Origin: Sialis fuliginosa
Lineage: Eukaryota > Arthropoda > Insecta > Megaloptera > Sialidae
Length of the DNA stretch: 64,000 nucleotides
Assembly: GCA_961205875.1 (NCBI GenBank)
Contig: OY540818.1
Span: 17,396,761-17,460,760, forward strand
Direction: 5' to 3'
The position numbers were made by a program, and so were the translations under genes. This document shows positions 2,501 through 63,590 of this stretch, one piece after another. How positions within the stretch are numbered: the first letter of the stretch is position 1; each line of letters opens with the position of its first letter. Below the pieces are notes generated by a model, which saw only the letters and a program-made list of their open reading frames with translations, ran no database searches and was not told the DNA's origin.

Positions 2501-2654
2501 TTATCTCGGGGTCTTATATGCTATATATGCATTATTATTGCATAATATGTTGTATCTTTATATGCAATCGGTAAGAACGCTGGTTTTAGATTTAAATATG
2601 TTTGTAATCCTATGCATTCTGATTGTACTATACAGTGTATTCCAAGTTGATTAA

Positions 2655-3517: not shown

Positions 3518-3520
3518 TAA

Positions 3521-9881: not shown

Positions 9882-10355
9882 ATGTCTACTAATTTTCCAA
9901 TTTCGAGGATAAAAACTATAATGAAAAGTTCACCAGAAGTAGAAAATATAGGTTTAGATTCAGCATTTCTTGTTGGGAAAGCTACGGTAATCTATATATA
10001 TTTTTTAATTTTATAAAATTCTGTACTTATAATTATGTTTTAGGAACATTTTATAAATTTCCTCACAAAGAGAGCACACGAAAGAAGTTCAGGAAAGAAA
10101 GTAGAGTATAAAGATCTTGCAGAAGTAGTACAAACTGATGATCGATTAGATTTTCTTCGGGAATGGGTGCCAAGGAAAATAACAGTAAGTCAGTTCAAGG
10201 AAATTATGAAGAAAAAAGGACAATCACAAGATGGTTCAGCTTCATCTGGTGACACGGATAGTGATAGTGGGTCAGAAAGCGATTCAGAATCAGACACTAA
10301 ATCAAGTGGAAGTATATCGTCATCTAAATCAAGTTTGTCAGTTCAAGAATTGTAA
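9882..10355 (+). CDS. Chrac-16: CHRAC1 / CHRAC-16-like histone-fold protein, two exons
   Basis: Two exons, 9882-9986 and 10044-10355 (stop TAA 10353-10355), join in phase 0 across a 57 bp GT-AG intron and give 138 residues. Residues 5-15 read FPISRIKTIMK, the conserved start of the NF-YC/CHRAC1/POLE4-type histone fold. The fold runs to about residue 85 and includes LVGKATEHFINFL and YKDLAEVV, followed by FLREWVPRKITVSQFKEIM. Residues 95-138 form a Ser/Asp/Glu-rich tail with SD/SE repeats. Family members dimerise with a CHRAC-14/POLE3-type partner and help the ISWI-ACF remodeller slide nucleosomes in the nucleus; that role is inferred from the family. The start is the first ATG before the fold. 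AATAAA at 10458-10463 is a plausible poly(A) signal. POLE4 is the main alternative, but the PRKI-x-x-x-QF segment and acidic tail favour CHRAC-16. The gene converges with the CD36-like gene 1.9 kb away. Confidence 0.88.
9987..10043 (+). other. Intron of the CHRAC-16-like gene
   Basis: A 57 bp intron with donor GTAATC and acceptor TTTTAG. It is very AT-rich, and removing it joins the histone fold in frame between T35 and E36. Confidence 0.85.
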
Positions 10356-12292: not shown

Positions 12293-15200
12293 TCATTTCA
12301 TAATATTTGATAAAGGTACATTGTTTTCCCGTTTAACATCTTTTCCATATATCGGAGTGTTCAGATGCAATGTACTATGTGCGTGAGCTGCTTTAATTAA
12401 CCTCCACGTAGCCACAATCAATAATATTATACCGACAATGAACAGAGCTGCTGAAACGATACTTCTCGCAACGGGAGGAACATCTGATGCGAGTTTCATT
12501 AATTTTGTAGCTTCTTCCGGCAATCCGACAACTCCCTGAAAATAAATATACGGTTTAAATGTCTGTTGCAAAATTAAATTTTTTCAGAAGATATATGAAA
12601 AATTTTGTACCTCTTCAAACCACATGATAGGGAAAATGATGTCCGGGAAATTGGCTACTTGTTTTATATCAATGACTTGGCTAACGGCTAAGTTGATCTG
12701 TACACGAGCTCTTGCAGCTAATGCTGTACCCATTACCTGAAATAAGAAAATAATATTATACCCAAAAAATAAATAAATAATTTTTTTTGACACATTAAGC
12801 AACGTATAAACATTTATCCATTAACACAAGGGTTAAATGATATTTGAATATAACTTTGTTTAGTAAAAAGCTTGTCAAGAAGTGAGTTCTGGCACTTTTT
12901 TTATAATACCGGGCGTAAGATATATGTTTCACTGATGTATTATATTATATTACAAAATACTCACAGGTGATACGTCTACGTAAAGTTTATGTTTCTCTGG
13001 ATCTGGAGGAGAGATTCCATCAAAAGCTTCCCTGAAGGAATCGTCAGCCATGTAAAAGTGAGGGAATGATAGTAAAACAGGCGAATCTTGAAAAATAATA
13101 AATAATACATTAAATTTCATGTACAATAGTTTTCAAAGCGAGAAAAAATAAATTAAGGTGGCTTTTATTAAAATTTATATGATAATAATAAATACCATCC
13201 TTAATATATATAAAGCTCAACGTCTCTCTGTCTGTCTGTCCGTTTGTGCGCTTATCACTCGAGAACCACTTATCCGATTTACGTGTTTTTTTTTTTAATT
13301 CAAAGGTACGTTCTCTGGACAGGTTATAGGCTATATTTTGTTACGTTAGGGAACATAATAACTAAGCAGTGACGATAATAGTAAATCAAGTCGGAAAATT
13401 TTTTGCCGTCGGCACGCTGCCTAAACCGTTCAATATAGAACAAAATAGTGTATTAAAGAATTGTGTAGAATCAAAAGTTCTACAATAAAGTCCGCGACAC
13501 CATATATCTAACTTTAATATTTAAGCCACAATGACTGCTTTTATGTTACAAAGAAAACATAAAATATTTGGGTTCTGTTTACATGGACTTATGACCTACG
13601 AAACATTAATCCTTATCGAAATAAATGATTTCATCGTCATAAGTACTTAATGTAGATATAATTTGCCATTTACAGCATCCAATTTGGTCGTATAGTTTAG
13701 AAAATATCGAAATATATGTTATACAGGACATATTATTCGCGCGTTGTGACCGTGCGCGGGGTGCGGCGAGGGGTGTGCCAAGTAGACTCATGGCAGAGTA
13801 TGATCACAGGCCGGTTTTCTTTTGATTGTCAATTGTTTATTTTGTTTTCAATAATTAACTTTTAAATAGAACAAAAATTATTTTTACTTTTTGTGCTGTT
13901 TCGCTTTTGTTAGGTAGGTAATTTAAGTGTTGTTTGGTTTTTATTACAATAATAACTAATCGTGTTTTATTTAATTCAACTATATATATTTTTTAAATCC
14001 TAAACAATAATTCCATGGATTATTACTATTAATATCAATTTAGACAAGAAATGAGAGTAAAAAATTAACATTTTTTAAAAACATTCTTCAAAAAACAGTC
14101 GTTTCAAAAGTCTAAAGGGTGTGCTTTTTATGGCCAAGCCATGCTATTTTTATCTGCTTGGACTATTACACATAGTTATTTAAATAATAAACTGACAAAT
14201 TGAAAAATATTTTTGTGTGTGACGTTTTATTATATCTGCAAAAATTGTACTTACCGTATTGACACAAAGATACGTTGAATAATCCGTTGGGGGCGCAAGG
14301 AGGTCCTCCGGGACAGAAGCACTCGTTATCCGGATTGTTCTCAACGCTTGCAAAAACGTTCTCCGGCGGTGTGAAGCGATACCCCGATACGTTACCCTGG
14401 GCTACGATGTCCTTCTCGTATTTCAAGGGCAGAAGACGGCACAGATCTTTGTCGTAAATATAAATCATATCGTCTTTAGAAATATGTGGGGGGAACAGTG
14501 ATCCGTCAGATCCGTTCAGTCTGTTGCAGGTATCCGTTTTCCAGTGAGGCAAGTACGCTCTACCGTTGAATTTGTCGATTAATCCGAACTTCGTGATGTC
14601 ACTAGCGCCAGTGAATACTGTTATTCTGTCTTCGGATGTGCCGTTTTTCTATTAATAGAATATATATTATTAAGGTACTGGCACCAGTTTTATTTTCTTG
14701 TATTTTAGTCGATATTTGTTGAAGTTCACTGTAGGAAATTTCACTAAAAAATTTCGAATTTTTGATTTCGTTAAAAGTATGTTTATTGTATAGAAAATGA
14801 CGTGAAAAGTTGTTTGTTTCAAACCGCAGGTCTGTATCTCGAACCGTTCTCGAGATATAGCCTCTCAAAGTTTTAGTTTTTTTCAAATTTTTGGAGAAAA
14901 AAGGCCATAACTTTTGAACGCGTGGTCGGAATTGATTTTAGTTGACGGATTTGGAATCAGCGTGTCAAAATCTATATAATGACATGTATAATACCTTAAA
15001 ACTCGGAAAAAAAATTTCGCGAAAAATCGAAAAAATTCAAAGGGGTATACCTTAAAAAAATGTCGATTTTTGGCCAAAATTTTTTTGTCGGATTTTAAAG
15101 TATTATACATGTCATTATATAGATTTTGACACGCTGATTTCAAATCCGTCAACTAAAATCAATTCCGACCACGCGTTCAAAAGTTATGGCCTTTTTTCTC

Positions 15201-17855
15201 CAAAAATTTGAAAAAACTAAAACTTTGAGAGGCTATATCTCGAGAACGGTTTGAAATACAGACCTGCGGTTTGAAACAAACAACTTTTCACGTCATTTTC
15301 TATACAATGAACATACTTTTAACGAAATTTTTTTAGTGAAATTTCCTACAGTGAACTTCAACTCGTCATACAAATATCGACTAAAATACAAGAAAATAAG
15401 ACGTAGAGATATTATAGTTTTATAATTGAACGTGTAAACTAATATTAAATGCTATTTTTTACTTTTGGTTAAAATGTTTGGATTGTGAATTTACATACCT
15501 TATAAAACAAACCAAATTCTTCATATGGTAGTTTAGCATCTTTGGTGACATCCTTAGCCAATCTAAGGAGCGGATCTTCGTAGCCCCAAAGCAGCTGATC
15601 GACTGATACTTCAACAAACGGTTTGATTTTTAAAATATCCATTATACTCGCCATGGCTAATCTTAAAAATCTAGCTGCATGTTTTGATTGTGAAGTTGCG
15701 CTCTGGAAAAACAAAGAATAATATTTCTTCACTTATTATAATGACGGTAGACACTAGTCGAAACAAGTTCAGTGTTAAAAAATACTGACATCTGAATCGA
15801 GTTAAAAAATGTAGGTGTTATGTATAAAAAAAATACTTGGTTTCCACCATCCCCATAGCCAACCCTTACCACCTTTTTATTATGTTCACAACAAAAGTAA
15901 CAAACATTACAGTTAATTTTTGTTTATAAGTTCACGTATACATACTAGGGTGTTTTTTTTAATTTTTAATTTTTCGGTCCCGCAGGTCTATGTTTTAGCT
16001 TTGGATCAAAAATTAATTGTCTCAAAATTTTTTGTGGACGGCGCAAACCGAGTCTTTTTCCCATTTGATTAACATGGGAAAAATTATTTTTTTACTTACG
16101 CGTGAATATCTCGTTGAAAAAATATCTTTTTGAAAATTTATCAGGGGAATATTTTGTAGAGAATTAAGTGCTCAATTCTAGGATCTAGGTTTACAATAAT
16201 TTTTCATGGACAGAAAAGTTGTTTTAGTGTATTTAATAAGCATTTTTCTATTTAATTTGCTTAATTTTCTGAGATTTGGGGGGGAGGGGTCATGTCCCTC
16301 ATGACCCCTCCCCCCTGGATCCGCGCTTGAATGTACTTGAATGTTAATATAAAAGTATAAGCAAATATTTATGTATGTATATTACAGAGGGAATAGAAAA
16401 TAAACATGGAAAATAAAATATACAACGTTATTATTTTAAATAAAATAATAATACATTTTTTTTAACTTACCAGCATTGGAATATTTGGAACGACGACCAC
16501 ATCGTCGACACTTCCGTAAGAAGCTTCTTCGTCAAACGTATAAATCTTTGAAGGGTTAAAACTAACCGTTCCGTTCTCGTTAAATGTAATATTCATTTTT
16601 TCCCAATTTTGTCTGAAAAATAAAATTTAATTTAATTATGAATTACAAAAAAAACAACTAATATATTACACTTACGCCCAGTATTATCAAGTTTAACTAA
16701 ATGCTCCTTTACTTTAACTAACTGACATATTATTAATAGATCCAAGCAAAATACATTTAATTAAATAGATTTTTAATTTTCTGCGTTATGTTTTTACAAT
16801 GTACATTTTTCATTGAGAGTCTAAATATTGATTTGAACCACTTTTGTAATATACAAAATTTAGGAGCTTTTAATTGGTTGATAATACTTGACAATTAATT
16901 ATTAAATTTAATTAAATTAATACTTACACTATCCAATACAAGCATGAGAATAAGTTATATGGAAATTATTATGTAAAATATGATTAAAGCTACAATATGT
17001 TATTTTATTTACCTATATACATAAGGTCCTAATTCTTCTACTGATGGTTTTGAACCGTTGTTGAGAAACTCATCTGCGTTTGTTACGTTGTAGATATATA
17101 CATGGAGGTAGGGTTCTATTGGTGGTTTCGACCAGAATTTGTATGTTTGAGATGAGGGTTTTAATACGATTTCCTGCAAAAACAATTTGATATTTTTAGA
17201 TTTAAAACTAGAAAAACTACACTAGCAGATAGGAAGAGTTGATTTCCTTTCTGTTTTGATTATAACAAAATACGGACGGGAGTTAATATTTCACCCCCCT
17301 GTCACGTATGGAGGGTTGTAATTGTTGTTTTAGCTGACCCGGTAAGCGTCGTTCTGCCCAAAAATAATTTGTTTAAAAATCTGACCATAAATACACATTT
17401 TTGTAAATATCTCGACTCCAGTGCCATCTACCGGGTCCAAAAAAAGTTAAACCTAACGAAAACACGAACATATGGTGTGAATATGGCTTCGATACGTCCA
17501 GTGGTTTAGGCCTGATGATCTCACATATAAAAAATCAACATTTTGATGTGTTTTTTTATATGGAAAAAATACAATTTTTCGAAATATCTCGACCCCTATC
17601 GGGTCCAAAAAATCTATAAAATTATCAAGGCACCAAACGAACATATGGTGTGAATATGGCTTCGATACGTCCAGTGGTTTAGGCCTGATGAGAACACAAA
17701 TACATACATACTAATGTTTTTATAAATTAAGATTAAAATTCAAATAATAAAAAAATACTTTACCATATCAATGAAAGCGTTGATCCATGCCATGAAAAAT
17801 ATTAATACAATCACTCCTAACAGAACTAATACTACGGCTAATCCAATCATGAACC
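12293..17855 (-). CDS. CD36 / scavenger receptor class B family membrane protein, eight coding exons
   Basis: Exons in transcript order: 17855-17764, 17173-17013, 16612-16471, 15702-15499, 14648-14255, 13086-12965, 12736-12611, 12535-12293. All joins are GT-AG and phase-consistent. From the ATG at 17850 the protein has 492 residues, within the usual family range. Residues 1-22 are a hydrophobic N-terminal anchor and about 437-459 a second membrane segment, giving the typical hairpin topology with a large ectodomain. Ectodomain marks are KPPIEPYLHVYIYNVTN, ELGPYVYR, six cysteines at about 239, 268, 308, 310, 316 and 327, and CQYDSPVLLSFPHFYMAD. N-glycosylation sequons include NVT, NIT, NGT, NGS and NVS. 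Family members bind or move lipids, lipoproteins, carotenoids or pheromones, or clear apoptotic cells; the ligand cannot be inferred here. The first exon opens after a strong TTTCAG acceptor, so at least one more upstream exon exists. Several introns carry transposons. Confidence 0.93.
13190..13800. repeat. LINE/SINE-like fragment in a CD36 intron
   Basis: TATATAAAGCTCAACG, a TCTGTCTGTCTGTCC run and CACTTATCCGATTTACG resemble 3' tails of insect non-LTR elements. The segment ends in a locally GC-rich stretch (13735-13800). Assignment rests on resemblance only. Confidence 0.4.
13860..14020. repeat. Dispersed repeat shared with 60715-60820
   Basis: TTTAAATAGAACAAAAATTA, then AAGTGTTGTTTGGTTTTTAT and AAATCCTAAACAATAATTCC, recur with small changes at 60715-60820. 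It lies in the CD36 intron between exons 14255 and 13086. Confidence 0.7.
14045..14150. repeat. Dispersed repeat, inverted copy at 30692-30776
   Basis: CATTCTTCAAAAAACAGTCG, AGTCTAAAGGGTGTGC and GGCCAAGCCATGCT appear inverted and slightly diverged at 30692-30776. Noncoding and intronic here. Confidence 0.65.
14671..15470. mobile_element. Family B palindromic element (copy 1), in a CD36 intron
   Basis: Two long arms centred near 15030-15050 are inverted copies; markers are CTCGAGATATAGCC, GGCCATAACTTTTGAACGCG and GACATGTATAATACCTT. Related copies are at 21300-22115 and 34868-35592. The left end is not the family's usual CTACGTCTTATTTTCTTG but a family A terminus (GGTACTGGCACCAG at 14673) joined directly to TTTTATTTTCTTG. 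Short ORFs on both strands come from the palindrome and are not genes. Confidence 0.75.
16278..16315. repeat. Perfect GC-rich hairpin in a CD36 intron
   Basis: The arm GGGGGGAGGGGTCATG and its exact complement flank a 5-base loop. The following CTGGATCCGCGCTTGA resembles the edge of common insect MITEs. Stable as DNA or RNA. Confidence 0.7.
17390..17700. repeat. Two tandem copies of a ~175 bp retroelement-like tail
   Basis: GAACATATGGTGTGAATATG and TTCGATACGTCCAGTGGTTT, then AGGCCTGATGA, occur at about 17466 and 17640. AATATCTCGAC with GGGTCCAAAAAA precedes each. The phrase ending in 'CCAGTGGTTTAGGCCTGATGA' resembles the 3' end of RTE-like non-LTR elements. It lies in a CD36 intron. Confidence 0.7.
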
Positions 17856-20170: not shown

Positions 20171-20180
20171 TGACAACATA

Positions 20181-20400
20181 AGGTATATGCACCAGTTATG
20201 GCCGCTATAAGAGCATGTTTTTTTGGATTAATGGGCTTGTTTTTTGTAATTCTCATGTTACTAATAAAACAAGTAACTCTTTATTAATCAATTTAATTAC
20301 CAAAGTCTGCAAATATAGTTTGTTTTTTTAAATTAAGCCTTTTATTTTGATTACGTTTCTCCAGTAATGACTAAAGTAAAACCAGTAATGAACACCGGGG
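20181..20400 (+). mobile_element. Family A MITE, truncated (copy 1)
   Basis: It begins with a decayed terminus (AGGTATATGCACCAGT) followed by TATGGCCGCTATAAGAGCA and AATAAAACAAGTAACTC. It stops after CCAGTAATGAACACC, so the 3' half is lost. Confidence 0.75.
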
Positions 20401-21299: not shown

Positions 21300-22115
21300 A
21301 ACATTTGAACCAAAAGTCAAAAATAGCATTTAATATTAATTTACACGTTCAATTATAAAACTATAATACCTCTACGTCTTATTTTCTTGTATTTTAGTCG
21401 ATATTTGTGTGACGAGTTGAAGTTCACTGTAGGAAATTTCACTAAAAAATTTCGAATTTTTGATTTCGTTAAAAGTATGTTTATTGTATAGAAAATGACG
21501 TGAAAAGTTGTTTGTTTCAAACCGCAGGTCTGTATCTTAAACCGTTCTCGAGATATAGCCTCTCAAAGTTTCAGTTTTTTCAAATTTTTGGAGAAAAAAG
21601 GCCATAACTTTTGAACGTGTAGTGGTAATTGATTTTAGTTGACGGATTTGAAATCAGCGTGTCAAAATCTATATAATGACATGTATAGTACCTAAAAACT
21701 CGGAAAAAAAAATTCACGAAAAATCGAAAAAATTCAAAGGGGTATACCTTAAAAAAATGTCGATTTTTGGCCAAAATTTTTTGTCGGATTTTAAAGTATT
21801 ATACATGTCATTATATAGATTTTGACACGCTGATTCCAAATCCGTCAACTAAAATCAATTCCCACCACCCGTTCAAAAGTTATGGCATTTTTTCTCCAAA
21901 AATTTGAAAAAACTAAAACTTTGAGAGGCTATATCTCGAGAACGGTTAGAGATACAGACCTGCGGTTTGAAACAAACAACTTTTCACGTCATTTTCTATA
22001 CAATAAACATACTTTTAACGAAATCAAAAATGCTAAATTTTTTAGTGAAATTTCCTGCAGTGAACTTCAACTCGTCACCCAAATATCGACTAAAATACAA
22101 GAAAATAAGACGTAG
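21300..22115. mobile_element. Family B palindromic element (copy 2)
   Basis: Core 21372-22115 runs from CTACGTCTTATTTTCTTG to its inverse, with arms of about 330 bp. The left flank (AAAAATAGCATTTAATATTA) belongs to the family: it appears inverted at the right side of copy 1 and left of copy 3. Both arms include CTCGAGATATAGCCTCTC and TATGG/CCATA-type motifs. Noncoding. Confidence 0.8.
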
Positions 22116-22192
22116 AATCATTTAGTTACTATATAAATATATAACAATTTATTTAAAAAAGTAATAGCTTGAACTAAAGCTGTTTCATATAA

Positions 22193-34867: not shown

Positions 34868-35592
34868 TAATCAAAAATAGCATTTAATATTAATTAACAC
34901 GCTCAGTTATAAAATTATAATACCTCTACGTCTTATTTTCTTGTATTTTAGTCGATATTTGTATGACGAGTTGAAGGAAATTTCACTAAAAAATTTCGAA
35001 TTTTTGATTTCGTTAAAATTATGTTTATTGTATAGAAAATGACGTGAAAAGTTGTTTGTTTCAAACCGCAGGTCTGTATCTCAAACCGTTCTCGAGATAT
35101 AGCCTTTCAAAGTTTTAATTTTTTCAAATTTTTGGAGAAAAAAGGCCATAACTTTTGAACGCGTAGTCGGAATTGATTTTAGTTGACGGATTTGGAATCA
35201 GCGTGTCAAAATCTATATAATGATATGTATAATACCTTAAAACTAGAAAAAAAAATTTTCACGAAAAATCGAAAAAATTCAAAGGGGTATACCTTAAAAA
35301 AATGTCGATTTTTTGCAAAAATTTTTTTGTCGAATTATAAAGTACTATACATGTCATTATATAGATTTTGACACGCTGATTTCAAATCCGTCAACTAAAA
35401 TCAATTCCGACCACACGTTCAAAAGTTATGGCCTTTTTTCTCCAAAAATTTGAAAAAACTAAAACTTTGAGAGGCTATATCTCGAGAACGGTTTGAGATA
35501 CAGACCTGCGGTTTGAAACAAACAACTTTTCACGTCATTTTCTATACAATAAACATACTTTTAACGAAATCAAAAATTCGAAATTTTTTTAG
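34868..35592. mobile_element. Family B palindromic element (copy 3), right end lost
   Basis: Same order as copy 2: AAAAATAGCATTTAATATTA, CTCTACGTCTTATTTTCTTG, both arms and the centre. The right arm breaks off after AAATTCGAAATTTTTTTAGG. Confidence 0.8.
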
Positions 35593-36193
35593 GTTTTCCG
35601 GGGTTGCTGAATTAGGATTTGTTAGTTAGCAGCTATCAAATAATCGATTTTTCTTGGATTTTTTTTTAAAATTAACATTGTAACTATGCTAATGAACCAA
35701 TCACAGTAGACGTCAAATTAGTAAATGTTTATTTAACATCAACTTCAAAAATATCTTAAGAAATTTAGGTTAACATAAAAGTATTTACACACATAACAAC
35801 TTATCTAAAGTAAAATGTAATAATGAAGGTTAATATTGTCAATCATTATAACGAAGGTTACATATACGCAATTTTAATTAGTTAAAACAATATATTTAAT
35901 ATATCCCAAGCATAATCAAGATTAATTAAAAATCTGCAAAGCAATTAACATAAACGCTTTGTATAATGAGGGTTTATTATGGTTTTAATAATTATAATTA
36001 TTTATACATAGATGGAAATAAATATTATGTTATATAAACGTTTTTTTATGTTCAATTCATGGATTAGAATTTTCCTTGATATTGTATAATTTCACTATTA
36101 ATGGAAACAATGTATCAATATGAAACGTGTGAAAAATTTTTAAATACTGAATTCTATTACAATAATATAATAAAATTAAAATAAGTTGATATA

Positions 36194-36340
36194 AGGTACT
36201 GGCACAAGTTATGGCCGCTATAAGAGGAAGGTTTATTGTTTTTGTGATTGACGGGCTTCTTTTTTGTAATTCTCATGAATTCATGTTACTAATAAAACAA
36301 GTAACTCTTTATTAAATCAATTTAATTTAATTTTAATCAT
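36194..36340 (+). mobile_element. Family A MITE, 5' part (copy 6)
   Basis: AGGTACTGGCACAAGTTATG, GCCGCTATAAGAGG and AATAAAACAAGTAACTC are present. Sequence diverges after about 36340. Confidence 0.8.
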
Positions 36341-39950: not shown

Positions 39951-39965
39951 AAACCATAATAAATA

Positions 39966-40508
39966 AGGTACTGGCACCAGTTAAGGCCACTATAAGAGCA
40001 AGGTTTATAGTTTTTGTGATTGACGGGCTTCTTTTTTGTAATTCTCATCAACTCATGTTATTAATAAAACAAGTAACTCTTTATTTAATCAATTTAATTA
40101 CCAAAGTCCACAAATATAGTTTTTTTTTTTAATTATAGCCTTTTATTTTGTTTATGTTTTTTCTCCAGTAATGGATAAAGTAAAACCTGTATGAGACACT
40201 TGCTAATGATTACAAAATGATAAGTACTACGACACAAAAGATATAAAAGAAAGCATCGTCAAATTTGAAACAATGTAAAGCAGTAGCTATGATAATATAA
40301 TAATAAATAAATAAATTATACTAATAATTAGTTTAAATACCCACCATTTTGACACCTTTTGACCGATTGTCATCAAATCACGCTGTAAGACAGTTAAATG
40401 TATATAGATTAATATTCAGAAATGGTAGTAATCAAATATCAACAAATATTTATAATTCAGTACATTTAATTTAAAAATAGCCATTACTGGGGTCATATCC
40501 AAGTACCT
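39966..40508 (+). mobile_element. Family A MITE, nearly full length (copy 7)
   Basis: Spans AGGTACTGGCACCAGTTAAG to TCCAAGTACCT, flanked by TA on each side. All internal blocks are in order, including GATAAGTACTACGACACAAA, AATTTGAAACAATGTAAAGC and CCACCATTTTGACACC. The right terminus has lost part of its repeat. About 540 bp, noncoding. Confidence 0.88.
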
Positions 40509-40906
40509 TATATTGAAATAGATCAGTTACAGTTTTTTTTTAATTGTAAGATAAACATATGTATTATTGTACATTATAAATAAACAAATAAACATAATTT
40601 TATTAAATAATTGAATATGAGTGATTGTAGTAAAAATCGATGAGAAAAAATCAATGAGACAACAACGGTCGAGGAGGTTAGCAAACAAAACATCGGTGAG
40701 TTCAATAGCCGATGAGAGAACGCGCCGCTGTGTGAACGGACTTGAATCAGCGGTCTTGAAAATGTCACCAAACCGTCCCTAATGATTTTACACGAAAAAT
40801 AATTTATAAATAATAAAATATCATTCATTGGAATTTACGGAAATACAACATGATTTTCTGGATAAAATTATACAGTATCAAGCAATTAACTAACTATATT
40901 AATAAA

Positions 40907-42068: not shown

Positions 42069-42563
42069 AGTACTGGCACCAGTTATGGCCACTATAAGAA
42101 TATATGAACTCATGTTACTAATAAAACAAGTAACTCTTTATTTAATCAATTTAATTACCAAAGTCCGAAAATATAGTTTGTTTTTTAAATTATAGTCTTT
42201 TATTTTGTTTTTGTTTTTTCTCCTGTAATGAGCACGCAGTGATGGACACTTGCTGATGATTACAAAATGATAAGTACTACGACACAAAAGATATAAAAGA
42301 AAGAATCGTCAAATTTGAAACAATGTAAAGCAGTTGTTATGATAATATAATAATTAATAAATAAATTATACTAATAATTAGTTTAAATGTCCACCATTTT
42401 GACACCTATTGGCCGATTGTCATCAAATCACGCTGTAAGACAGTTAAATGCATATAGATTAATATTCAGAAATGGTAATAATCAAATATCAACAAATATT
42501 TCTAATTCAGTACATTTAATTAAAAAATAGCCATTACTGGGGTCATATCCAAGTCTGGTACCT
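42069..42563 (+). mobile_element. Family A MITE, nearly full length (copy 9)
   Basis: AAGTACTGGCACCAGTTATG to CCAAGTCTGGTACCT. A small deletion follows GGCCACTATAAGAA; the rest is collinear with copy 7. Confidence 0.85.
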
Positions 42564-42589
42564 TATATCATTCTAACAAATTCTCTACA

Positions 42590-42790: not shown

Positions 42791-43129
42791 CACTACCAAA
42801 AACAAATATATAATCACATATACACTACCGCAGAGAATGTATTTATATAATTATTATTATTGTATTTTTTGCGTTTCTCAATTCAAAAATTGTTTCTTTT
42901 GTTCAGTTATTATAAATTATAATTGAAGATATAGTAGATAAACAGTTTTTTTTCTGTTATTTGATCTTGAAGTACATAATTATGTTAACGGATTTTGAAA
43001 AGTGCATTTTAAATCGAACCATTAGGGTCAATCCACACTATCGTGCGAATCTCGCTCCAGTCAAATATTCAGTATAGTAATACTGTATCGGACCGAGACT
43101 GAAGCGATACCTGTTGTTTATTGTATAAT

Positions 43130-43531
43130 GTAGAGGCACCAGTTATGGCCGCTATAAGAGCAAGTGTTTTTGGATTAATTAATGGGCTTGTTTTTTGTAA
43201 TTCTCATGTTACTAATAAAACAAGTAACTCTTTATTTAATCAAATTAATTACCAAAGTCACCAAATATAGTTTGTTTTTTAAATTATAGCCTTTTATTTT
43301 GATTATGTTTTTTGAGCACGCAGTGATGGACACTTGCTAATGATTACAAAATGATAAGTACTACGACACAAAAGATATAAAAGAAACAATCATCTTTGAT
43401 ACAATGTAAAGCAGTTGCTATGATAATATAATAATTATTTAATAAATTACACTAATAATTAGTTTAAATGTCCACCATTTTGACACCTATTGGCCGATTG
43501 TCATCAAATCACGTTGTAAGACAGTTAAATA
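43130..43531 (+). mobile_element. Family A MITE, 3' truncated (copy 10)
   Basis: Starts with a worn end (TAGAGGCACCAGTTATGGCC) and is collinear to CGTTGTAAGACAGTTAAAT, then stops. Confidence 0.82.
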
Positions 43532-44034
43532 TAGCACAAAAAAGATCTTGGCTGTTGCTGAAAATTCTAACATCGGCCCTGTATTATAATTATCACATAT
43601 ATATACAGATTAAAATAGAATGTAAAAAATCTATTCAGTATACATTTTATTTAATAATAATGATAATTAAAAAGCAAATCAGTACCTATGTACATTGAAA
43701 TAATTAAAGTACTATGTAAGAAATAAAAAAATTATAAGCACTTGTTAATATTCATGTTGTTGACAAAGGAGAAAGTGTTATAGCCCATAAAATATTTTGA
43801 AAGTGAAATTTACTTTGATTCATTGAGTAGTGTAATAAATGCCCTAAAATTGTAGTTCAGGGTCATTTGTAAAATATCGATAATACCATAGAAATTCACT
43901 CGGTTAAAATAATTCACGATTTTTTTTCCAAGGGAAGCAAATATTTTGGACATAAATCAACATTTTTTTCCTTGATTTTCGGCCTTAATCTTAATGTTTA
44001 TAATCTGTCTGTACCTGTATTTAATATAATCATA

Positions 44035-48721: not shown

Positions 48722-48917
48722 TCTCCTCTGTTATGAACCATTTGAATTATAATAAAATTGCATGACGTTAACATTTGTTTACAAAGTCAAAAAAATGAAA
48801 TAAACTTTTATTTTCAAAAAAAGATTTTTTTTACTATTTTTCCCTTAAATCTAGCCTACTTCTGCTTCAAAAAATTAATATTTCGTTAAAATAAAAAAAA
48901 TCATGCAATTAAGGGTT

Positions 48918-51900
48918 AAAGATAATAGTGTAAGCTACATTTTAAAAAAAAAACTGGAGTCTCCTCGATCGCGCCAAGCTGAGATATTAACTATTCAATT
49001 TACTTCTTTGTTAGCGTATGAGTTTTAATTTGTTTTTTTAGTTTTAACTTGTTTTTAAAAAGGGAAGGAGCACGCGAAGGTCTTTAAGTGCGTGATGCTC
49101 TTAAAGATAATAGTGTAAGCTACATTTAAAAAAAAACTGGAGTCTCTTCGATCGCGCCAAGCTGAGATATTAACTATTCAATTTACTTCTTTGTTAGCGT
49201 ATGAGTTTTAATTTGTTTTTTTAGTTTTAACTTGTTTTTAAAAAGGGAAGGAGCACGCGAAGGTCTTTAAGTGCGTGATGCTCTTAAAGATAATAGTGTA
49301 AGCTACATTTTAAAAAAAAACTGGAGTCTCTTCGATCGCGCCAAGCTGAGATATTAACTATTCAATTTACTTCTTTGTTAGCGTATGAGTTTTAATTTGT
49401 TTTTTTAGTTTTAACTTGTTTTTAAAAAGGGAAGGAGCACGCGAAGGTCTTTAAGTGCGTGATGCTCTTAAAGATAATAGTGTAAGCTACATTTAAAAAA
49501 AAAACTGGAGTCTCTTCGATCGCGCCAAGCTGAGATATTAACTATTCAATTTACTTCTTTGTTAGCGTATGAGTTTTAATTTGTTTTTTTAGTTTTAACT
49601 TGTTTTTAAAAAGGGAAGGAGCACGCGAAGGTCTTTAAGTGCGTGATGCTCTTAAAGATAATAGTGTAAGCTACATTTAAAAAAAAAACTGGAGTCTCTT
49701 CGATCGCGCCAAGCTGAGATATTAACTATTCAATTTACTTCTTTGTTAGCGTATGAGTTTTAATTTGTATTTTTAGTTTTAACTTGTTTTTAAAAAGGGA
49801 AGGAGCACGCGAAGGTCTTTAAGTGCGTGATGCTCTTAAAGATAATAGTGTAAGCTACATTTAAAAAAAAAACTGGAGTCTCTTCGATCGCGCCAAGCTG
49901 AGATATTAACTATTCAATTTACTTCTTTGTTAGCGTATGAGTTTTAATTTGTATTTTTAGTTTTAACTTGTTTTTAAAAAGGGAAGGAGCACGCGAAGGT
50001 CTTTAAGTGCGTGATGCTCTTAAAGATAATAGTGTAAGCTACATTTAAAAAAAAAACTGGAGTCTCTTCGATCGCGCCAAGCTGAGATATTAACTATTCA
50101 ATTTACTTCTTTGTTAGCGTATGAGTTTTAATTTGTTTTTTTAGTTTTAACTTGTTTTTAAAAAGGGAAGGAGCACGCGAAGGTCTTTAAGTGCGTGATG
50201 CTCTTAAAGATAATAGTGTAAGCTACATTTTAAAAAAAAACTGGAGTCTCTTCGATCGCGCCAAGCTGAGATATTAACTATTCAATTTACTTCTTTGTTA
50301 GCGTATGAGTTTTAATTTGTTTTTTTAGTTTTAACTTGTTTTTAAAAAGGGAAGGAGCACGCGAAGGTCTTTAAGTGCGTGATGCTCTTAAAGATAATAG
50401 TGTAAGCTACATTTAAAAAAAAACTGGAGTCTCTTCGATCGCGCCAAGCTGAGATATTAACTATTCAATTTACTTCTTTGTTAGCGTATGAGTTTTAATT
50501 TGTTTTTTTAGTTTTAACTTGTTTTTAAAAAGGGAAGGAGCACGCGAAGGTCTTTAAGTGCGTGATGCTCTTAAAGATAATAGTGTAAGCTACATTTTAA
50601 AAAAAACTGGAGTCTCTTCGATCGCGCCAAGCTGAGATATTAACTATTCAATTTACTTCTTTGTTAGCGTATGAGTTTTAATTTGTTTTTTTAGTTTTAA
50701 CTTGTTTTTAAAAAGGGAAGGAGCACGCGAAGGTCTTTAAGTGCGTGATGCTCTTAAAGATAATAGTGTAAGCTACATTTTAAAAAAAAACTGGAGTCTC
50801 TTCGATCGCGCCAAGCTGAGATATTAACTATTCAATTTACTTCTTTGTTAGCGTATGAGTTTTAATTTGTTTTTTTAGTTTTAACTTGTTTTTAAAAAGG
50901 GAAGGAGCACGCGAAGGTCTTTAAGTGCGTGATGCTCTTAAAGATAATAGTGTAAGCTACATTTTAAAAAAAAACTGGAGTCTCTTCGATCGCGCCAAGC
51001 TGAGATATTAACTATTCAATTTACTTCTTTGTTAGCGTATGAGTTTTAATTTGTATTTTTAGTTTTAACTTGTTTTTAAAAAGGGAAGGAGCACGCGAAG
51101 GTCTTTAAGTGCGTGATGCTCTTAAAGATAATAGTGTAAGCTACATTTAAAAAAAAACTGGAGTCTCTTCGATCGCGCCAAGCTGAGATATTAACTATTC
51201 AATTTACTTCTTTGTTAGCGTATGAGTTTTAATTTGTGTTTTTAGTTTTAACTTGTTTTTAAAAAGGGAAGGAGCACGCGAAGGTCTTTAAGTGCGTGAT
51301 GCTCTTAAAGATAATAGTGTAAGCTACATTTTAAAAAAAAACTGGAGTCTCTTCGATCGCGCCAAGCTGAGATATTAACTATTCAATTTACTTCTTTGTT
51401 AGCGTATGAGTTTTAATTTGTATTTTTAGTTTTAACTTGTTTTTAAAAAGGGAAGGAGCACGCGAAGGTCTTTAAGTGCGTGATGCTCTTAAAGATAATA
51501 GTGTAAGCTACATTTTAAAAAAAAACTGGAGTCTCTTCGATCGCGCCAAGCTGAGATATTAACTATTCAATTTACTTCTTTGTTAGCGTATGAGTTTTAA
51601 TTTGTTTTTTTAGTTTTAACTTGTTTTTAAAAAGGGAAGGAGCACGCGAAGGTCTTTAAGTGCGTGATGCTCTTAAAGATAATAGTGTAAGCTACATTTT
51701 AAAAAAAAACTGGAGTCTCTTCGATCGCGCCAAGCTGAGATATTAACTATTCAATTTACTTCTTTGTTAGCGTATGAGTTTTAATTTGTTTTTTTAGTTT
51801 TAACTTGTTTTTAAAAAGGGAAGGAGCACGCGAAGGTCTTTAAGTGCGTGATGCTCTTAAAGATAATAGTGTAAGCTACATTTTAAAAAAAAACTGGAGT

Positions 51901-54900
51901 CTCTTCGATCGCGCCAAGCTGAGATATTAACTATTCAATTTACTTCTTTGTTAGCGTATGAGTTTTAATTTGTTTTTTTAGTTTTAACTTGTTTTTAAAA
52001 AGGGAAGGAGCACGCGAAGGTCTTTAAGTGCGTGATGCTCTTAAAGATAATAGTGTAAGCTACATTTAAAAAAAAAACTGGAGTCTCTTCGATCGCGCCA
52101 AGCTGAGATATTAACTATTCAATTTACTTCTTTGTTAGCGTATGAGTTTTAATTTGTATTTTTAGTTTTAACTTGTTTTTAAAAAGGGAAGGAGCACGCG
52201 AAGGTCTTTAAGTGCGTGATGCTCTTAAAGATAATAGTGTAAGCTACATTTTAAAAAAAAACTGGAGTCTCTTCGATCGCGCCAAGCTGAGATATTAACT
52301 ATTCAATTTACTTCTTTGTTAGCGTATGAGTTTTAATTTGTATTTTTAGTTTTAACTTGTTTTTAAAAAGGGAAGGAGCACGCGAAGGTCTTTAAGTGCG
52401 TGATGCTCTTAAAGATAATAGTGTAAGCTACATTTAAAAAAAAAACTGGAGTCTCTTCGATCGCGCCAAGCTGAGATATTAACTATTCAATTTACTTCTT
52501 TGTTAGCGTATGAGTTTTAATTTGTTTTTTTAGTTTTAACTTGTTTTTAAAAAGGGAAGGAGCACGCGAAGGTCTTTAAGTGCGTGATGCTCTTAAAGAT
52601 AATAGTGTAAGCTACATTTTAAAAAAAAACTGGAGTCTCTTCGATCGCGCCAAGCTGAGATATTAACTATTCAATTTACTTCTTTGTTAGCGTATGAGTT
52701 TTAATTTGTTTTTTTAGTTTTAACTTGTTTTTAAAAAGGGAAGGAGCACGCGAAGGTCTTTAAGTGCGTGATGCTCTTAAAGATAATAGTGTAAGCTACA
52801 TTTAAAAAAAAACTGGAGTCTCTTCGATCGCGCCAAGCTGAGATATTAACTATTCAATTTACTTCTTTGTTAGCGTATGAGTTTTAATTTGTTTTTTTAG
52901 TTTTAACTTGTTTTTAAAAAGGGAAGGAGCACGCGAAGGTCTTTAAGTGCGTGATGCTCTTAAAGATAATAGTGTAAGCTACATTTTAAAAAAAACTGGA
53001 GTCTCTTCGATCGCGCCAAGCTGAGATATTAACTATTCAATTTACTTCTTTGTTAGCGTATGAGTTTTAATTTGTTTTTTTAGTTTTAACTTGTTTTTAA
53101 AAAGGGAAGGAGCACGCGAAGGTCTTTAAGTGCGTGATGCTCTTAAAGATAATAGTGTAAGCTACATTTTAAAAAAAAACTGGAGTCTCTTCGATCGCGC
53201 CAAGCTGAGATATTAACTATTCAATTTACTTCTTTGTTAGCGTATGAGTTTTAATTTGTTTTTTTAGTTTTAACTTGTTTTTAAAAAGGGAAGGAGCACG
53301 CGAAGGTCTTTAAGTGCGTGATGCTCTTAAAGATAATAGTGTAAGCTACATTTTAAAAAAAAACTGGAGTCTCTTCGATCGCGCCAAGCTGAGATATTAA
53401 CTATTCAATTTACTTCTTTGTTAGCGTATGAGTTTTAATTTGTATTTTTAGTTTTAACTTGTTTTTAAAAAGGGAAGGAGCACGCGAAGGTCTTTAAGTG
53501 CGTGATGCTCTTAAAGATAATAGTGTAAGCTACATTTAAAAAAAAACTGGAGTCTCTTCGATCGCGCCAAGCTGAGATATTAACTATTCAATTTACTTCT
53601 TTGTTAGCGTATGAGTTTTAATTTGTGTTTTTAGTTTTAACTTGTTTTTAAAAAGGGAAGGAGCACGCGAAGGTCTTTAAGTGCGTGATGCTCTTAAAGA
53701 TAATAGTGTAAGCTACATTTTAAAAAAAAACTGGAGTCTCTTCGATCGCGCCAAGCTGAGATATTAACTATTCAATTTACTTCTTTGTTAGCGTATGAGT
53801 TTTAATTTGTATTTTTAGTTTTAACTTGTTTTTAAAAAGGGAAGGAGCACGCGAAGGTCTTTAAGTGCGTGATGCTCTTAAAGATAATAGTGTAAGCTAC
53901 ATTTTAAAAAAAAACTGGAGTCTCTTCGATCGCGCCAAGCTGAGATATTAACTATTCAATTTACTTCTTTGTTAGCGTATGAGTTTTAATTTGTTTTTTT
54001 AGTTTTAACTTGTTTTTAAAAAGGGAAGGAGCACGCGAAGGTCTTTAAGTGCGTGATGCTCTTAAAGATAATAGTGTAAGCTACATTTTAAAAAAAAACT
54101 GGAGTCTCTTCGATCGCGCCAAGCTGAGATATTAACTATTCAATTTACTTCTTTGTTAGCGTATGAGTTTTAATTTGTTTTTTTAGTTTTAACTTGTTTT
54201 TAAAAAGGGAAGGAGCACGCGAAGGTCTTTAAGTGCGTGATGCTCTTAAAGATAATAGTGTAAGCTACATTTTAAAAAAAAACTGGAGTCTCTTCGATCG
54301 CGCCAAGCTGAGATATTAACTATTCAATTTACTTCTTTGTTAGCGTATGAGTTTTAATTTGTTTTTTTAGTTTTAACTTGTTTTTAAAAAGGGAAGGAGC
54401 ACGCGAAGGTCTTTAAGTGCGTGATGCTCTTAAAGATAATAGTGTAAGCTACATTTAAAAAAAAACTGGAGTCTCTTCGATCGCGCCAAGCTGAGATATT
54501 AACTATTCAATTTACTTCTTTGTTAGCGTATGAGTTTTAATTTGTTTTTTTAGTTTTAACTTGTTTTTAAAAAGGGAAGGAGCACGCGAAGGTCTTTAAG
54601 TGCGTGATGCTCTTAAAGATAATAGTGTAAGCTACATTTAAAAAAAAACTGGAGTCTCTTCGATCGCGCCAAGCTGAGATATTAACTATTCAATTTACTT
54701 CTTTGTTAGCGTATGAGTTTTAATTTGTTTTTTTAGTTTTAACTTGTTTTTAAAAAGGGAAGGAGCACGCGAAGGTCTTTAAGTGCGTGATGCTCTTAAA
54801 GATAATAGTGTAAGCTACATTTAAAAAAAAAACTGGAGTCTCTTCGATCGCGCCAAGCTGAGATATTAACTATTCAATTTACTTCTTTGTTAGCGTATGA

Positions 54901-56065
54901 GTTTTAATTTGTATTTTTAGTTTTAACTTGTTTTTAAAAAGGGAAGGAGCACGCGAAGGTCTTTAAGTGCGTGATGCTCTTAAAGATAATAGTGTAAGCA
55001 CATTTTTAAAAAAAACTGGAGTCTCTTCGATCGCGCCAAGCTGAGATATTAACTATTCAATTTACTTCTTTGTTAGCGTATGAGTTTTAATTTGTTTTTT
55101 TAGTTTTAACTTGTTTTTAAAAAGGGAAGGAGCACGCGAAGGTCTTTAAGTGCGTGATGCTCTTAAAGATAATAGTGTAAGCTACATTTTAAAAAAAAAC
55201 TGGAGTCTCTTCGATCGCGCCAAGCTGAGATATTAACTATTCAATTTACTTCTTTGTTAGCGTATGAGTTTTAATTTGTTTTTTTAGTTTTAACTTGTTT
55301 TTAAAAAGGGAAGGAGCACGCGAAGGTCTTTAAGTGCGTGATGCTCTTAAAGATAATAGTGTAAGCTACATTTAAAAAAAAAACTGGAGTCTCTTCGATC
55401 GCGCCAAGCTGAGATATTAACTATTCAATTTACTTCTTTGTTAGCGTATGAGTTTTAATTTGTTTTTTTAGTTTTAACTTGTTTTTAAAAAGGGAAGGAG
55501 CACGCGAAGGTCTTTAAGTGCGTGATGCTCTTAAAGATAATAGTGTAAGCTACATTTTAAAAAAAAACTGGAGTCTCTTCGATCGCGCCAAGCTGAGATA
55601 TTAACTATTCAATTTACTTCTTTGTTAGCGTATGAGTTTTAATTTGTTTTTTTAGTTTTAACTTGTTTTTAAAAAGGGAAGGAGCACGCGAAGGTCTTTA
55701 AGTGCGTGATGCTCTTAAAGATAATAGTGTAAGCTACATTTAAAAAAAAAACTGGAGTCTCTTCGATCGCGCCAAGCTGAGATATTAACTATTCAATTTA
55801 CTTCTTTGTTAGCGTATGAGTTTTACTTTGTTTTTTTAGTTTTAACTTGTTTTTAAAAAGGGAAGGAGCACGCGAAGGTCTTTAAGTGCGTGATGCTCTT
55901 AAAGATAATAGTGTAAGCTACATTTAAAAAAAAAACTGGAGTCTCCTCCTACCTATTCAATTTACTTCTTTGTTAGCGTATGAGTTTTAATTTGTTTTTT
56001 TAGTTTTAACTTGTTTTTAAAAAGGGAAGTGGCACGGGAAGGTCTTTAAGTGCGTGATGCTCTTA
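48918..56065. repeat. Satellite array, about 39 units of ~183 bp
   Basis: Units run head to tail at 183-184 bp spacing. Each contains TAATAGTGTAAGCTACATTT, an A8-A11 run, CTGGAGTCTCTTCGATCGCG, CCAAGCTGAGATATTAAC, GTTAGCGTATGAGTTTTAAT and GGAGCACGCGAAGGTCTTTA followed by AGTGCGTGATGCTCTT. Units are almost identical; differences are mainly one base after AATTTGT (T, A or G) and the T/A run lengths. First and last units are the most diverged, the last with an internal deletion after GAGTCTCCTCC. No ORF and no spacers. Confidence 0.97.
49770..54540. repeat. 13-unit higher-order repeat inside the satellite, two copies
   Basis: Counting units by the base after AATTTGT, units 5-17 read A A T T T T T A G A T T T and units 18-30 read the same. 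The rare G variants lie at 51238 and 53626, 2388 bp apart. The T/A run lengths before the units agree in 12 of 13 pairs, including the rare A8 run (50593 and 52981). This supports a duplicated ~2.39 kb block. Confidence 0.8.
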
Positions 56066-56331
56066 ACCCTTAATTGCATCTTGTTAACATTCGTGAACAA
56101 TGTTTTCAGAGGTATCTATTAGCAAAAATGTACAATATTTTTTAGTCTAATATTAATATAATATTTATTTTTTCCTCACAAACTTTTTTTCTATTTTTAA
56201 ATATTTTTATAAGAAAAATTCATGTGAAAAAGATTTTATTATTTTATAAATATAAATAAAGACCAATTTTAAATTTTTTTTTTTCGTAGTTCACAAACAA
56301 GTTTACTATGAAAATAATGTTTTTGTACATA

Positions 56332-56455
56332 AGCTAAAGACACCAGTTATGGCCGCTATAAGAGCAAGTTTTCGTTTTTTTTTGGATTAATGGGCTTGTT
56401 TTTTGTAATTCTAATGAACTCATTTTACTAATAAAATAAGTAACTCTTTATTTAA
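56332..56455 (+). mobile_element. Family A MITE, 5' part (copy 11)
   Basis: Worn end AAGCTAAAGACACCAGTTAT, then GGCCGCTATAAGAGCAAG and AGTAACTCTTTATTTAAT. The rest is lost. Confidence 0.78.
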
Positions 56456-56801
56456 TTATTATATAATTTTTTTTTACATCATAAATAGGATTTCTGGTCA
56501 TCCCTGATAATAAAAATGAATGTTACGCCACTGCTTGAGAAGACGGCATGACATAAGTGACACAAGTGCTAATTGTACAAGCCGGACCTGACAGACTTAC
56601 GTAAATATGTGCCTAGGCATAAAATACTACTGTACAATGGCGTAACAATGAAAGTGCAATAGACAGATATACACACAACGGAAAGAGAGTGAGAGAGATT
56701 TTAATGGGAGGGGGACAGTTGTGGACACCGCATACTAATTCATTAGAAAAGAAATTTGAAATTCGATATAAGAAGAAAGCAACTTGAGTAACATACATAT
56801 A

Positions 56802-57471
56802 CAGTGCGTTCATGAAGAAAGGAACAAATACGTTTAAAATTCAGCTAATTATTTTATGGAAAAACGCGGATTTTTTGACATAAGAAATGTGTATACAAGA
56901 AAATATGCAGTCATCATTGATTTTTTTAATGGAACACCCTGTATATTATGCCATTTTTGAATTGTACGGTAAATTCTGAACACTTTCTGTACAACATACC
57001 ATAGCCCTAAAATCAGCGGTTTTTGGAATAATGACGTTTGAAATGTGATAAATGAAAAAAAATTAATGAACTTTAATAATAAAACTTACAAAAGATTTTT
57101 TTGCTTTATAATAAAGGTTGTTTTTGTTGGCTTTAAAAAAAAGGTTTGTTCAATTTAAACATTTTGTGTGTATTTCAAAATATCAATTTTAAAACGTCAT
57201 TATTCCGAAAACCGCTGATTTTAGAGATATGGTATGCTACAAAAAGTGTTCAGAATTTACAGTACAATTGAAAAATGGCATAATATACAGGATGTTCCAT
57301 TAAAAAAAGTCAATGATGACTGCATATGTTCTTCTTGAAACACCTTGTGTACAATTTTCTTATGTCAAAAAATCCGCAACTAAAAATACTAATCGACGTG
57401 TCCGAGCGTTTTTCCACAAAATAACTACCTGAATTTTAAAAGAGTTTGTTCCTTTCATCATAAACGCACTG
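56802..57471. mobile_element. Fold-back Tc1/mariner-type MITE, 670 bp
   Basis: Ends CAGTGCGTTCATGA and AACGCACTG are inverted and flanked by TA on both sides. The arms match for most of their length: GGAACAAA / TTTGTTCC, TGACATAAGAAA / TTCTTATGTCA, AAAATCAGCGGTTTTTGGAA and its inverse. The middle spacer is near 57050-57180. No transposase. Confidence 0.8.
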
Positions 57472-57544
57472 TATATAAACAAATTATTAATGTGCGACCA
57501 TGTAACAGATACGCAAAAATGCCTGTGGCGCCATCAATAAAAAA

Positions 57545-59760: not shown

Positions 59761-60239
59761 AAAAAGTGATAAGTAGCGTTTGAAAGTAAATTCTTTCTTT
59801 CTTCATCTTACAGAATCTCCTGCGTCAACTCATATAGTTAAAAAGTGCGTTTCTAATAAACAGATCAAGGTATTACATCAGCAAATTATGTTTTCGTTAA
59901 TTCACATTAAAAATACAACCGGTTCTATAACCAAATTCTTTGCAGACATTCGCTGGTAAGTAATCGTCATTAAATACATTAAATATCAAAGATTTTGATA
60001 TTCAAGATATGTATATTTTTGGCGTGTATTTATATGCAAGAATAAATTTTAAAATGTCGATCTTATCTAGTTTTTTGTTATATGTTATTTTGTAAACAAT
60101 AAAAAAAACTTGATTTCTGTATTGCATAAATATGTCGGTTTGTATTTTATATATTTATAAATGTACATTATCTTTTTTATATTATTTTACCCTACTCGAA
60201 ATAACTGCATAGTAACAAATTAATTCTAGGAAATGTATA

Positions 60240-60706
60240 AGGTACTGGCACCAGTTACGGCCACTATAGGAGCAAGGTTTACTAATAAAACAACTAACTC
60301 TTTATTTAATCTATTTAATTATAAAAGTCCTTTTATTTTGTTTATGTTTTTTCTCCAGTAATGGATAAAGTAACACCAGTAATGAGCACGTAGTGATGAA
60401 CACTTGCTAATGATTTCAAAATGTTAAGTACTACGACACAAAAGATATAAAAGAAAGAATCGTCAAATTTGAAATAATGTAAAGCAGTTGATATGATAAT
60501 ATAATAATTAATAAATAAATTATACTAATAATTAGTTTAAATGTCTACCATTTTGACACCTATTGGCCGATTATCATCAAATCACGCTGTGAGGCAGTTA
60601 AATGTATATAGTTTAATATTCAGAAATGGTAGTAATCAAATATCAACAAATATTTCTAATTCAGTACATTTAATTAAAATTAAGCCATTACTGGGATCAT
60701 ATCCAA
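60240..60706 (+). mobile_element. Family A MITE, right end lost (copy 13)
   Basis: AGGTACTGGCACCAGTTACG through GGGATCATATCCAACTT. The last 15-20 bases are replaced by the repeat at 60715. Confidence 0.83.
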
Positions 60707-61787: not shown

Positions 61788-62315
61788 GTACTGGCACCAG
61801 TCTTGGATACGACCCCAGTAATGGCTATTTTTTATTTTATTGTACTGAATAAGAAATATTTGTTGATATCTGATTATTACCATTTCTGAATATTAATCTA
61901 TATACATTTAACTGTCTGACAGCGTGATTTGACGACAATCGGCCAATAGGTGTCAAAATGGTGGACATTTAAACTAATTATTAGTATAATTTAAATTAAT
62001 TATTATATTATCACAGCAACTGCTTCACATTGTTTCAAATTTGACGATTCATTTGTGTCGTAGTACTTATCATTTCAAGTGTCCATCACTGCGTGCTCAT
62101 TACAGGTTTTACTTTATCCATTACTTGAGAAAAAACATAAACAAAATAAAAGACTATAATTTAAAAAAACAAACTATATTTGCGGACTTTGGTAATTAAA
62201 TTGATTAAATAAAGAGTTACTTGTTTTATTAGTAACATGAGTTCATGAGAATTACAAAAAAGCCTGTCAATCGTAAACCTTTCTCTTATAGCGGCCATAA
62301 CTGGTTCCAGTACCT
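61788..62315 (-). mobile_element. Family A MITE, full length, reversed (copy 14)
   Basis: GTACTGGCACCAGTCTTGGA to CATAACTGGTTCCAGTACCT, all blocks in reverse order. It is about 530 bp and one of the most intact copies. Confidence 0.87.
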
Positions 62316-62319
62316 TATT

Positions 62320-63590
62320 TGTTTATAAACTAGTTTATTAGGTGTCTAAGTACTTAACGTACTAAAATTAAAACATTCAAATACAAAAGTATGTCCTAAT
62401 AATAGAAATGAGAATTGATAGAAGAAATGTTGATTTTCATATCTAATACTAAATAATTTACATATTTAACCACAAAAATAACGGAAATAGTATTTTTATA
62501 TAATTAGCATTAACCATGAAATTATGTGTAAGTTTTGTCTATACGTCAGAGATTACCAGGAAAATATTTTTTAACTCGTTCAATTTCATAGAATCAAGGT
62601 TTATCAACTTCTAAACATATTTCACCTTTATCTAATATTTTTTATTAGAATTAATTATTTGTAATAATAATAAAAGTGCTAATTGATTAAGGAAATCCTT
62701 AAATAAAATTTAAATAATTGATTTAACTTTGATAAATAAGTATACCTATTTCTAACTTCCTCAACAAAAAATTAATTATAATATGGGTGTTATGAAAATA
62801 TTTAATAAATAAAAATACAAATTAAATTTAAATTAATTATTTTGTAAACAAAGAAAAAAATAAATATAGATTTAGTTTCTTTCAGAAAAGACAAACAATG
62901 GTGTCAAATATTTAAAATACTGATTCACAAAAATATTTCTAATTTCGATTTTGTATTATATTATAAAAAAAGAATTATTAATTAAAATGATTAGTTAAAT
63001 AGAACAATATTTTAAAGAAATCAATGGAAAATTAAAACCAATTCATACATATGTGGCTTCGGACCGCATATAAGAGCGTCACTGGCCAGCCCTGGTATAA
63101 AATAATACTAAAAATTTGCGTAAAAACGACGGTTACAAAAGTGATCATTTGTATGTACATACTGTACATAGTATACAAGTAGGTACATTAAGATATAAAC
63201 AAATACTAGTTTACTCACGTGGCAAATAAATATTTATGTAAATTTGTTCTTTGAAATCATCCGTGATTCATCTGAGTTTTTCAATTACAATTCATAATTC
63301 ATATACACATATTATCCTCTGACGAATTTTTTACATACATTTAATTGTCAGCGTTGATGAGTGTATTTTTTTTATTATTATACACGTGACTAACACGTGT
63401 TAAATCATTTTTCCTAAATTTAAATATATGATTAATATATATCCTCTCTTAGTTTCTTATTCTTACACATTACTTTATTGTAAAAAATTATTATAATAAT
63501 AATTCGCGTCTAATGTATATAATATGTATGTATATTTTAAACTCTATGGTTTTTTATAGTATTATTCCACTATAAGATAAGATACATTAA
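62320..63590. other. Intergenic AT-rich DNA
   Basis: No gene recognised. A strong donor-like GTGAGT on the - strand at 63214-63219 follows an untranslatable stretch and could end a distant 5' UTR exon, but nothing confirms it. Confidence 0.35.

Follow-up and report, generated by a model that had tools for sequence, protein, structure and literature searches.

Genomic context of the locus

The window, i.e., the whole stretch of 64,000 nucleotides that was analysed here, is read as animal DNA, with a GC content of 23-34% in 2-kb windows. Exons of a CD36-family gene, presumably one of the scavenger receptor/SNMP-like type, lie on the minus strand at 12587-17221, where five of eight translated stretches matched Pfam PF01130. 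An open frame of 103 aa with an acidic serine-rich tail (10044-10352), which had no Pfam match at 0.01, resembles a CHRAC/histone-fold subunit. No tRNA genes were found in the window.

Palindromic and dispersed elements are abundant in the window. Large palindromic elements that are 88-92% self-complementary occupy positions 2648-3524, 14687-15402, 21371-22116 and 34988-35589, the last three being members of one family. A dispersed family is found at 20173-20395, 36157-36340, 39958-40513, 42104-42568, 43125-43533, 56318-56482, 60237-60706 and 61788-62323; it is concentrated towards the right of the window and has ends like TAAGGTACTGGCACCAGT in some copies. One fragment of it starts about 240 bp to the right of the tandem array described below, and further to the right of the array, at 56797-57476, there is a palindromic sequence of ~680 bp (71% self-complementary, ends CAGTGCGTTCATGA...), which looks to us like a mariner-type foldback element.

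A nearly homogeneous tandem array of 39 units

The tandem array and its internal blocks are located as follows.

48916..56062, plus strand: tandem array of 39 units with a modal length of 184 bp (unit finding, TRF and alignment)
49652..52040, plus strand: units 5-17, first copy of a block of 2,389 bp (unit comparison)
52041..54429, plus strand: units 18-30, second copy, with 12 of its 13 units matching the first copy letter for letter (unit comparison)
55899..56062, plus strand: unit 39, diverged edge unit of 164 bp with an internal deletion of about 20 nt (alignment)

The units are arranged head-to-tail, are nearly identical and non-coding, and together form a satellite array between 48916 and 56062. 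The array contains no stop-to-stop ORF of at least 100 aa, all four such ORFs of the window being located elsewhere. The 39 units, of which the first starts at 48916 and the last at 55899, all open with TTAAAGATAATAGTG, and the sequence CTC-TTAA-AGA is present at 38 of 38 unit junctions. The 38 full units measure 184 bp (27 units), 183 bp (10 units) or 185 bp (one unit), and TRF reported a period of 184 with 38.3 copies and 99% matches over 48916-55945. The first-pass annotation, made from the sequence alone, had counted about 39 near-identical units of ~183 bp, with which our result agrees; the bounds that it gave, 48918-56065, begin inside the first TTAA and end 3 nt too far to the right, the true end being 56062.

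Recurrent variation across the 39 aligned units is limited to the T/A run that follows ACAT (columns 28-30) and to column 119 after AATTTGT, which holds T in 28 units, A in nine and G in two. The remaining changes are private to unit 34, 38 or 39, except for a C at alignment column 49 that is common to units 1 and 39 alone. Among units 2-38 (666 pairs), the mean is 1.30 differences per 184 bp. The edit distance from the modal unit is 25 for unit 39 and 2 for unit 1, the latter value being shared by units 5, 6, 13, 18, 26, 33, 34 and 38; the edge units had been described as the most diverged, and this holds at the right edge but not at the left.

The array differs in base composition between its strands, with a GC skew of about +0.2 and an AT skew of about -0.1 (2-kb windows, 50001-56000); the GC skew of the windows outside the array stays within 0.1 of zero. 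A hairpin-like stem, GAGCA...TGCTC, is situated near the unit end, and the unit as a whole folds no better than its shuffled versions (z +1.23; 179 of 200 shuffles gave an equal or better fold). No Rfam match reached the gathering score in the window, and a ribozyme-bearing satellite or an RNA gene was therefore rejected; the sub-threshold matches comprise six of the sRNA/CRISPR type in 48850-50000. A CENP-B box, looked for as a trait of alpha-like centromeric satellites, was not found either, the best match in a scan with its consensus agreeing at 12 of 15 positions including six free ones, i.e., at six of the nine fixed positions. Diverged copies of the unit are absent from the rest of the window, where the best match outside the array had an E value of 0.019. 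An exact 23-mer of the unit had no match in viral_contigs and genome_contigs, as expected for an animal satellite, and six strings of the sequence had no match in the open-licence literature that was searched. It is improbable that the array itself has a sequence-coded function.

Tandem duplication of a 13-unit block

When distinct units are coded as letters, the array reads ABCDEEDCBFCGHGCCCEGDCBFCGHGCCCBBEICDCJK. The proposal that units 5-17 recur as units 18-30 with 12 of 13 agreeing is borne out on whole units, the sole mismatch of the two blocks being unit 6 versus unit 19, which differ at the boundary of the T/A run. Alignment of all units and a search for a period of 13, as had been recommended along with that proposal, revealed 11 consecutive units that are letter-identical at lag 13 (units 7-17 and 20-30), with the longest identical run not exceeding two units at all other lags from 1 to 29. 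No run of at least three identical units besides that at lag 13 was found at lags 1-37, and units 5-17 versus 18-30 were the best block among widths of 10-15 units. In 5,000 shuffles of the unit order, the longest run was seven units (reached in five shuffles, exceeded in none), and a block match above 8/13 was obtained in none of 1,000 shuffles of the unit types. When the null was a first-order Markov model that had been trained on units 1-6 plus 18-39, a run of at least 11 units appeared in 18 of 5,000 simulations; because its training set is small and includes the second copy, this null is repetitive and thus a harsh control.

The segment 49125-52076, the longest in-register stretch (picked post hoc), differs from its own copy shifted by 2,389 bp at 2 of 2,952 positions. 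Compared with the average of 1.30 differences per 184 bp among units, this shows that the block was duplicated after the variants that it carries had arisen, and supports the earlier claim of recent growth by copying a ~2.39 kb block, which is present in the assembly as a tandem duplication of 2,389 bp. The claim of a 13-unit higher-order repeat stands in part. Block identity exceeds between-unit identity, as in a higher-order repeat, though in only about two copies; the repeat is a single segmental duplication and not a repeatedly amplified or centromere-like multimer. The 13-unit signal depends on few variable sites, i.e., the T/A run and column 119. Among the units with a run total of 12, the T/A-run boundary and the T or A state of column 119 occur in each of their four possible combinations (in 13, six, five and four units), a pattern that fits exchange or conversion between units, or recurrent mutation at the run.

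A perfect inverted repeat frames the array

A perfect 17-nt inverted repeat, absent from the first-pass annotation, encloses the array exactly, at both edges.

48903..48919, plus strand: left inverted-repeat arm ATGCAATTAAGGGTTAA, its last four bases being the first TTAA of unit 1
56063..56079, minus strand: right inverted-repeat arm, TTAACCCTTAATTGCAT on the plus strand, reverse complement of the left arm

On its inner side, each arm ends in TTAA, as at the 38 unit junctions. The arm was found at these two places only, with no further occurrence in the window at up to three mismatches. When 20,000 pairs of 40-nt pieces were drawn at random outside 48800-56200, 5 of them shared an inverted match of at least 17 nt at any position, contact with both array edges not being required. 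In a BLAST comparison between the whole 3-kb flanks, the 17-nt match scored no better than a further two short matches, all three having 31.9 bits and E 0.002; the match is not rare at the scale of the 3-kb flanks, and its weight therefore rests on its position at both array edges. The 3-kb flanks contain no longer terminal inverted repeat, so that the match remains 17 nt, and no target duplication is visible outside the arms.

A tandem array that ends exactly at inverted ends is what would be expected of a satellite inside an element with terminal inverted repeats (TIRs). In view of this framing by the 17-nt repeat, the array is no longer read as simply a young satellite, but as one that lies within a transposon-like element. 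The 17-nt arms correspond to the terminal inverted repeats of a MITE, which shrink to only 7 nt if TTAA is taken as the target duplication. TTAA does adjoin GGG...CCC on both outer sides, but this tetranucleotide is self-complementary and located within the symmetric 17 nt. A TTAA model would comprise the following parts.

48909..48912, no strand: candidate left target-site duplication TTAA (TTAA model; tetranucleotide read from the sequence, role proposed)
48913..56069, no strand: candidate mobile element GGG-[TTAA + ~180 bp] x39-TTAA-CCC of 7,157 bp (TTAA model; proposed extent)
56070..56073, no strand: candidate right target-site duplication TTAA (TTAA model; tetranucleotide read from the sequence, role proposed)

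According to this model, the element GGG-TTAA-[array]-TTAA-CCC would sit in ATGCAA-TTAA-TTGCAT, and the expected empty site would be ATGCAATTAATTGCAT. The paired terminal inverted repeat is then only GGGTTAA (7 nt), six of the 14 end bases mismatch, and the outer ATGCAA/TTGCAT symmetry must be due to chance or to target preference. Alternatively, the whole 17 nt may form the terminal inverted repeat, without a target duplication. A scan of the window for other TTAA-flanked elements gave 47 pairs whose ends match at 12 or more of 14 bases; among the 25 pairs listed, 24 fall, by our reading, in the palindromic or dispersed families of the window. The array ends fail this test with their 6/14 mismatches, so that the scan is uninformative about the array.

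The known piggyBac elements have a TTAA target and a CC-type terminus that points inwards. Here, TTAA-CCC reads outward from the array and TTAA-GGG inward, and a piggyBac element is therefore disfavoured. Two flanking, outward-facing piggyBac-like elements were also considered and rejected, as their partner ends are absent from the window at up to three mismatches.

Origin of the array and alternative explanations

We propose that the satellite array is carried within a non-autonomous DNA-transposon-like (MITE-like) element, and put the probability of this reading at roughly 60%. A small element with terminal inverted repeats would have inserted, most simply at a TTAA that was duplicated in the process, and an interior segment flanked by TTAA microhomology could then have given rise to tandem copies. 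The array would subsequently have been lengthened and homogenised by unequal exchange or gene conversion, with unit 39 at the right edge having apparently escaped homogenisation. The latest visible step would be one misaligned exchange, by which 13 units were gained. Counting against this reading, no second copy of the element turned up in the window, and the analysis brought no transposase to light.

The first alternative is a plain young satellite array without any mobile element, at a site that carried a short palindrome by chance or within which the array was seeded. Unequal exchange alone would produce a homogeneous interior, a diverged unit at the right edge and a segmental duplication, and such an origin is in line with the lack of a target duplication outside the 17-nt arms as well as with the further short matches of equal BLAST score in the 3-kb flanks. 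However, a perfect 17-nt inverted repeat that starts exactly at the two edges of the array would seldom arise by chance, as the 5 in 20,000 random pairs indicate, and we regard this explanation as unlikely.

Somewhat more doubtful still is the explanation that assembly error, i.e., a false duplication or consensus smoothing, accounts in part for the 13-unit period or for the length of the array; this would be compatible with the MITE-like reading. Near-identical arrays are difficult to assemble, many of the markers are T/A run states and the copies of the block are nearly exact, with the two differences in 2,952 positions. Against this, the two block copies are not the same at the T/A boundary, where unit 6 departs from unit 19, and column 119, a substitution marker with the states T, A and G, shows the same 13-unit period. 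An array of 7 kb can fit in a single long read.

That each unit of ~180 bp is itself a TTAA-flanked element, multiplied by repeated TTAA insertions and unequal exchange in a 30-nt palindromic site, would agree with the TTAA at the flanks of every unit and with the double-insertion route to satellites described in PMC12628747, but is very unlikely, as it requires a perfect 30-nt palindrome as the target and the two ends of a unit, AGATAATAG... and (read inverted) GAGCATCAC..., do not match as inverted repeats.

If the MITE-like reading holds and a matching transposase exists, the block of ~7.2 kb may be mobile. A stronger version, in which a complete and mobile TTAA-targeting carrier of ~7.2 kb has an interior made up entirely of satellite and seeds whole arrays elsewhere by transposition, is speculative and in our view improbable. 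If it were true, the array length would shift by tens of units between copies, and the TTAA at each unit edge would serve both as microhomology and as a potential transposase target. The origin and dispersal of satellites are still under debate. An array that is young, that has kept its two transposon-like ends and whose last duplication can be ordered in time offers a clean case, and copies at further sites could show whether arrays are seeded by transposition and then lengthened through unequal exchange.

Comparison with known systems

In higher-order repeats of the alpha-satellite type, multi-unit blocks recur almost unchanged with a multimeric period, and the present array resembles them in this respect. 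It differs from them in that there is one 13-unit duplication, the units are already ~99% alike, the array spans only 7.1 kb and no CENP-B box was found. Satellite arrays borne by Helitrons or Helentrons reportedly occur in oyster and Drosophila. Helitrons are not known to possess inverted termini of the present type or to duplicate their target upon insertion. Perfect inverted ends are present around our array, in contrast to Helitrons, and because the ends are inverted repeats, a Helitron was rejected as the first choice. The layout of a central tandem array between conserved ends is nevertheless common to the Helitron/Helentron-borne arrays (PMC12628747) and to the array described here.

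Arrays inside MITEs have precedents (PMC12628747, PMC6004289), and the routes outlined in the review PMC12628747 include amplification of a MITE segment (Xmix/Xstir), microhomology (miDNA4) and double insertion. In miDNA4, a Tc1/mariner MITE of Xenopus, a variable tandem array likewise lies inside the element, and short AT-rich direct repeats flanking the unit are proposed there as the cause of expansion (PMC12628747). These direct repeats are at least 5 bp long in miDNA4 (PMC12628747), whereas the shared junction TTAA in our array has 4 bp.

The Xmix element of Xenopus, which carries the amplified Xstir segment (PMC6004289), is similar in two respects, as the interior of a TTAA-targeting MITE is tandemly amplified and TTAA stands beside purine ends (PMC6004289, PMC12628747). 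Xmix/Xstir is a T2-MITE of the Kolobok superfamily, for which a TTAA target and an RR terminus are described, the T2-MITE ends being AGGRR (PMC6004289). The TTAA/GGG end of our array matches RR but not AGGRR, and the T2-MITE ends contrast with the GGGTTAA of the TTAA model. With this limit, a TTAA duplication with GGG ends would resemble the Kolobok/T2-MITEs. No Kolobok-linked insect satellite with TTAA was found in the open-licence literature that was searched. The interest of the array is moderate because satellites tied to MITEs or other transposons have already been described in frogs, bivalves and flies; the phenomenon is known, and the array is most likely a further case of a described kind.
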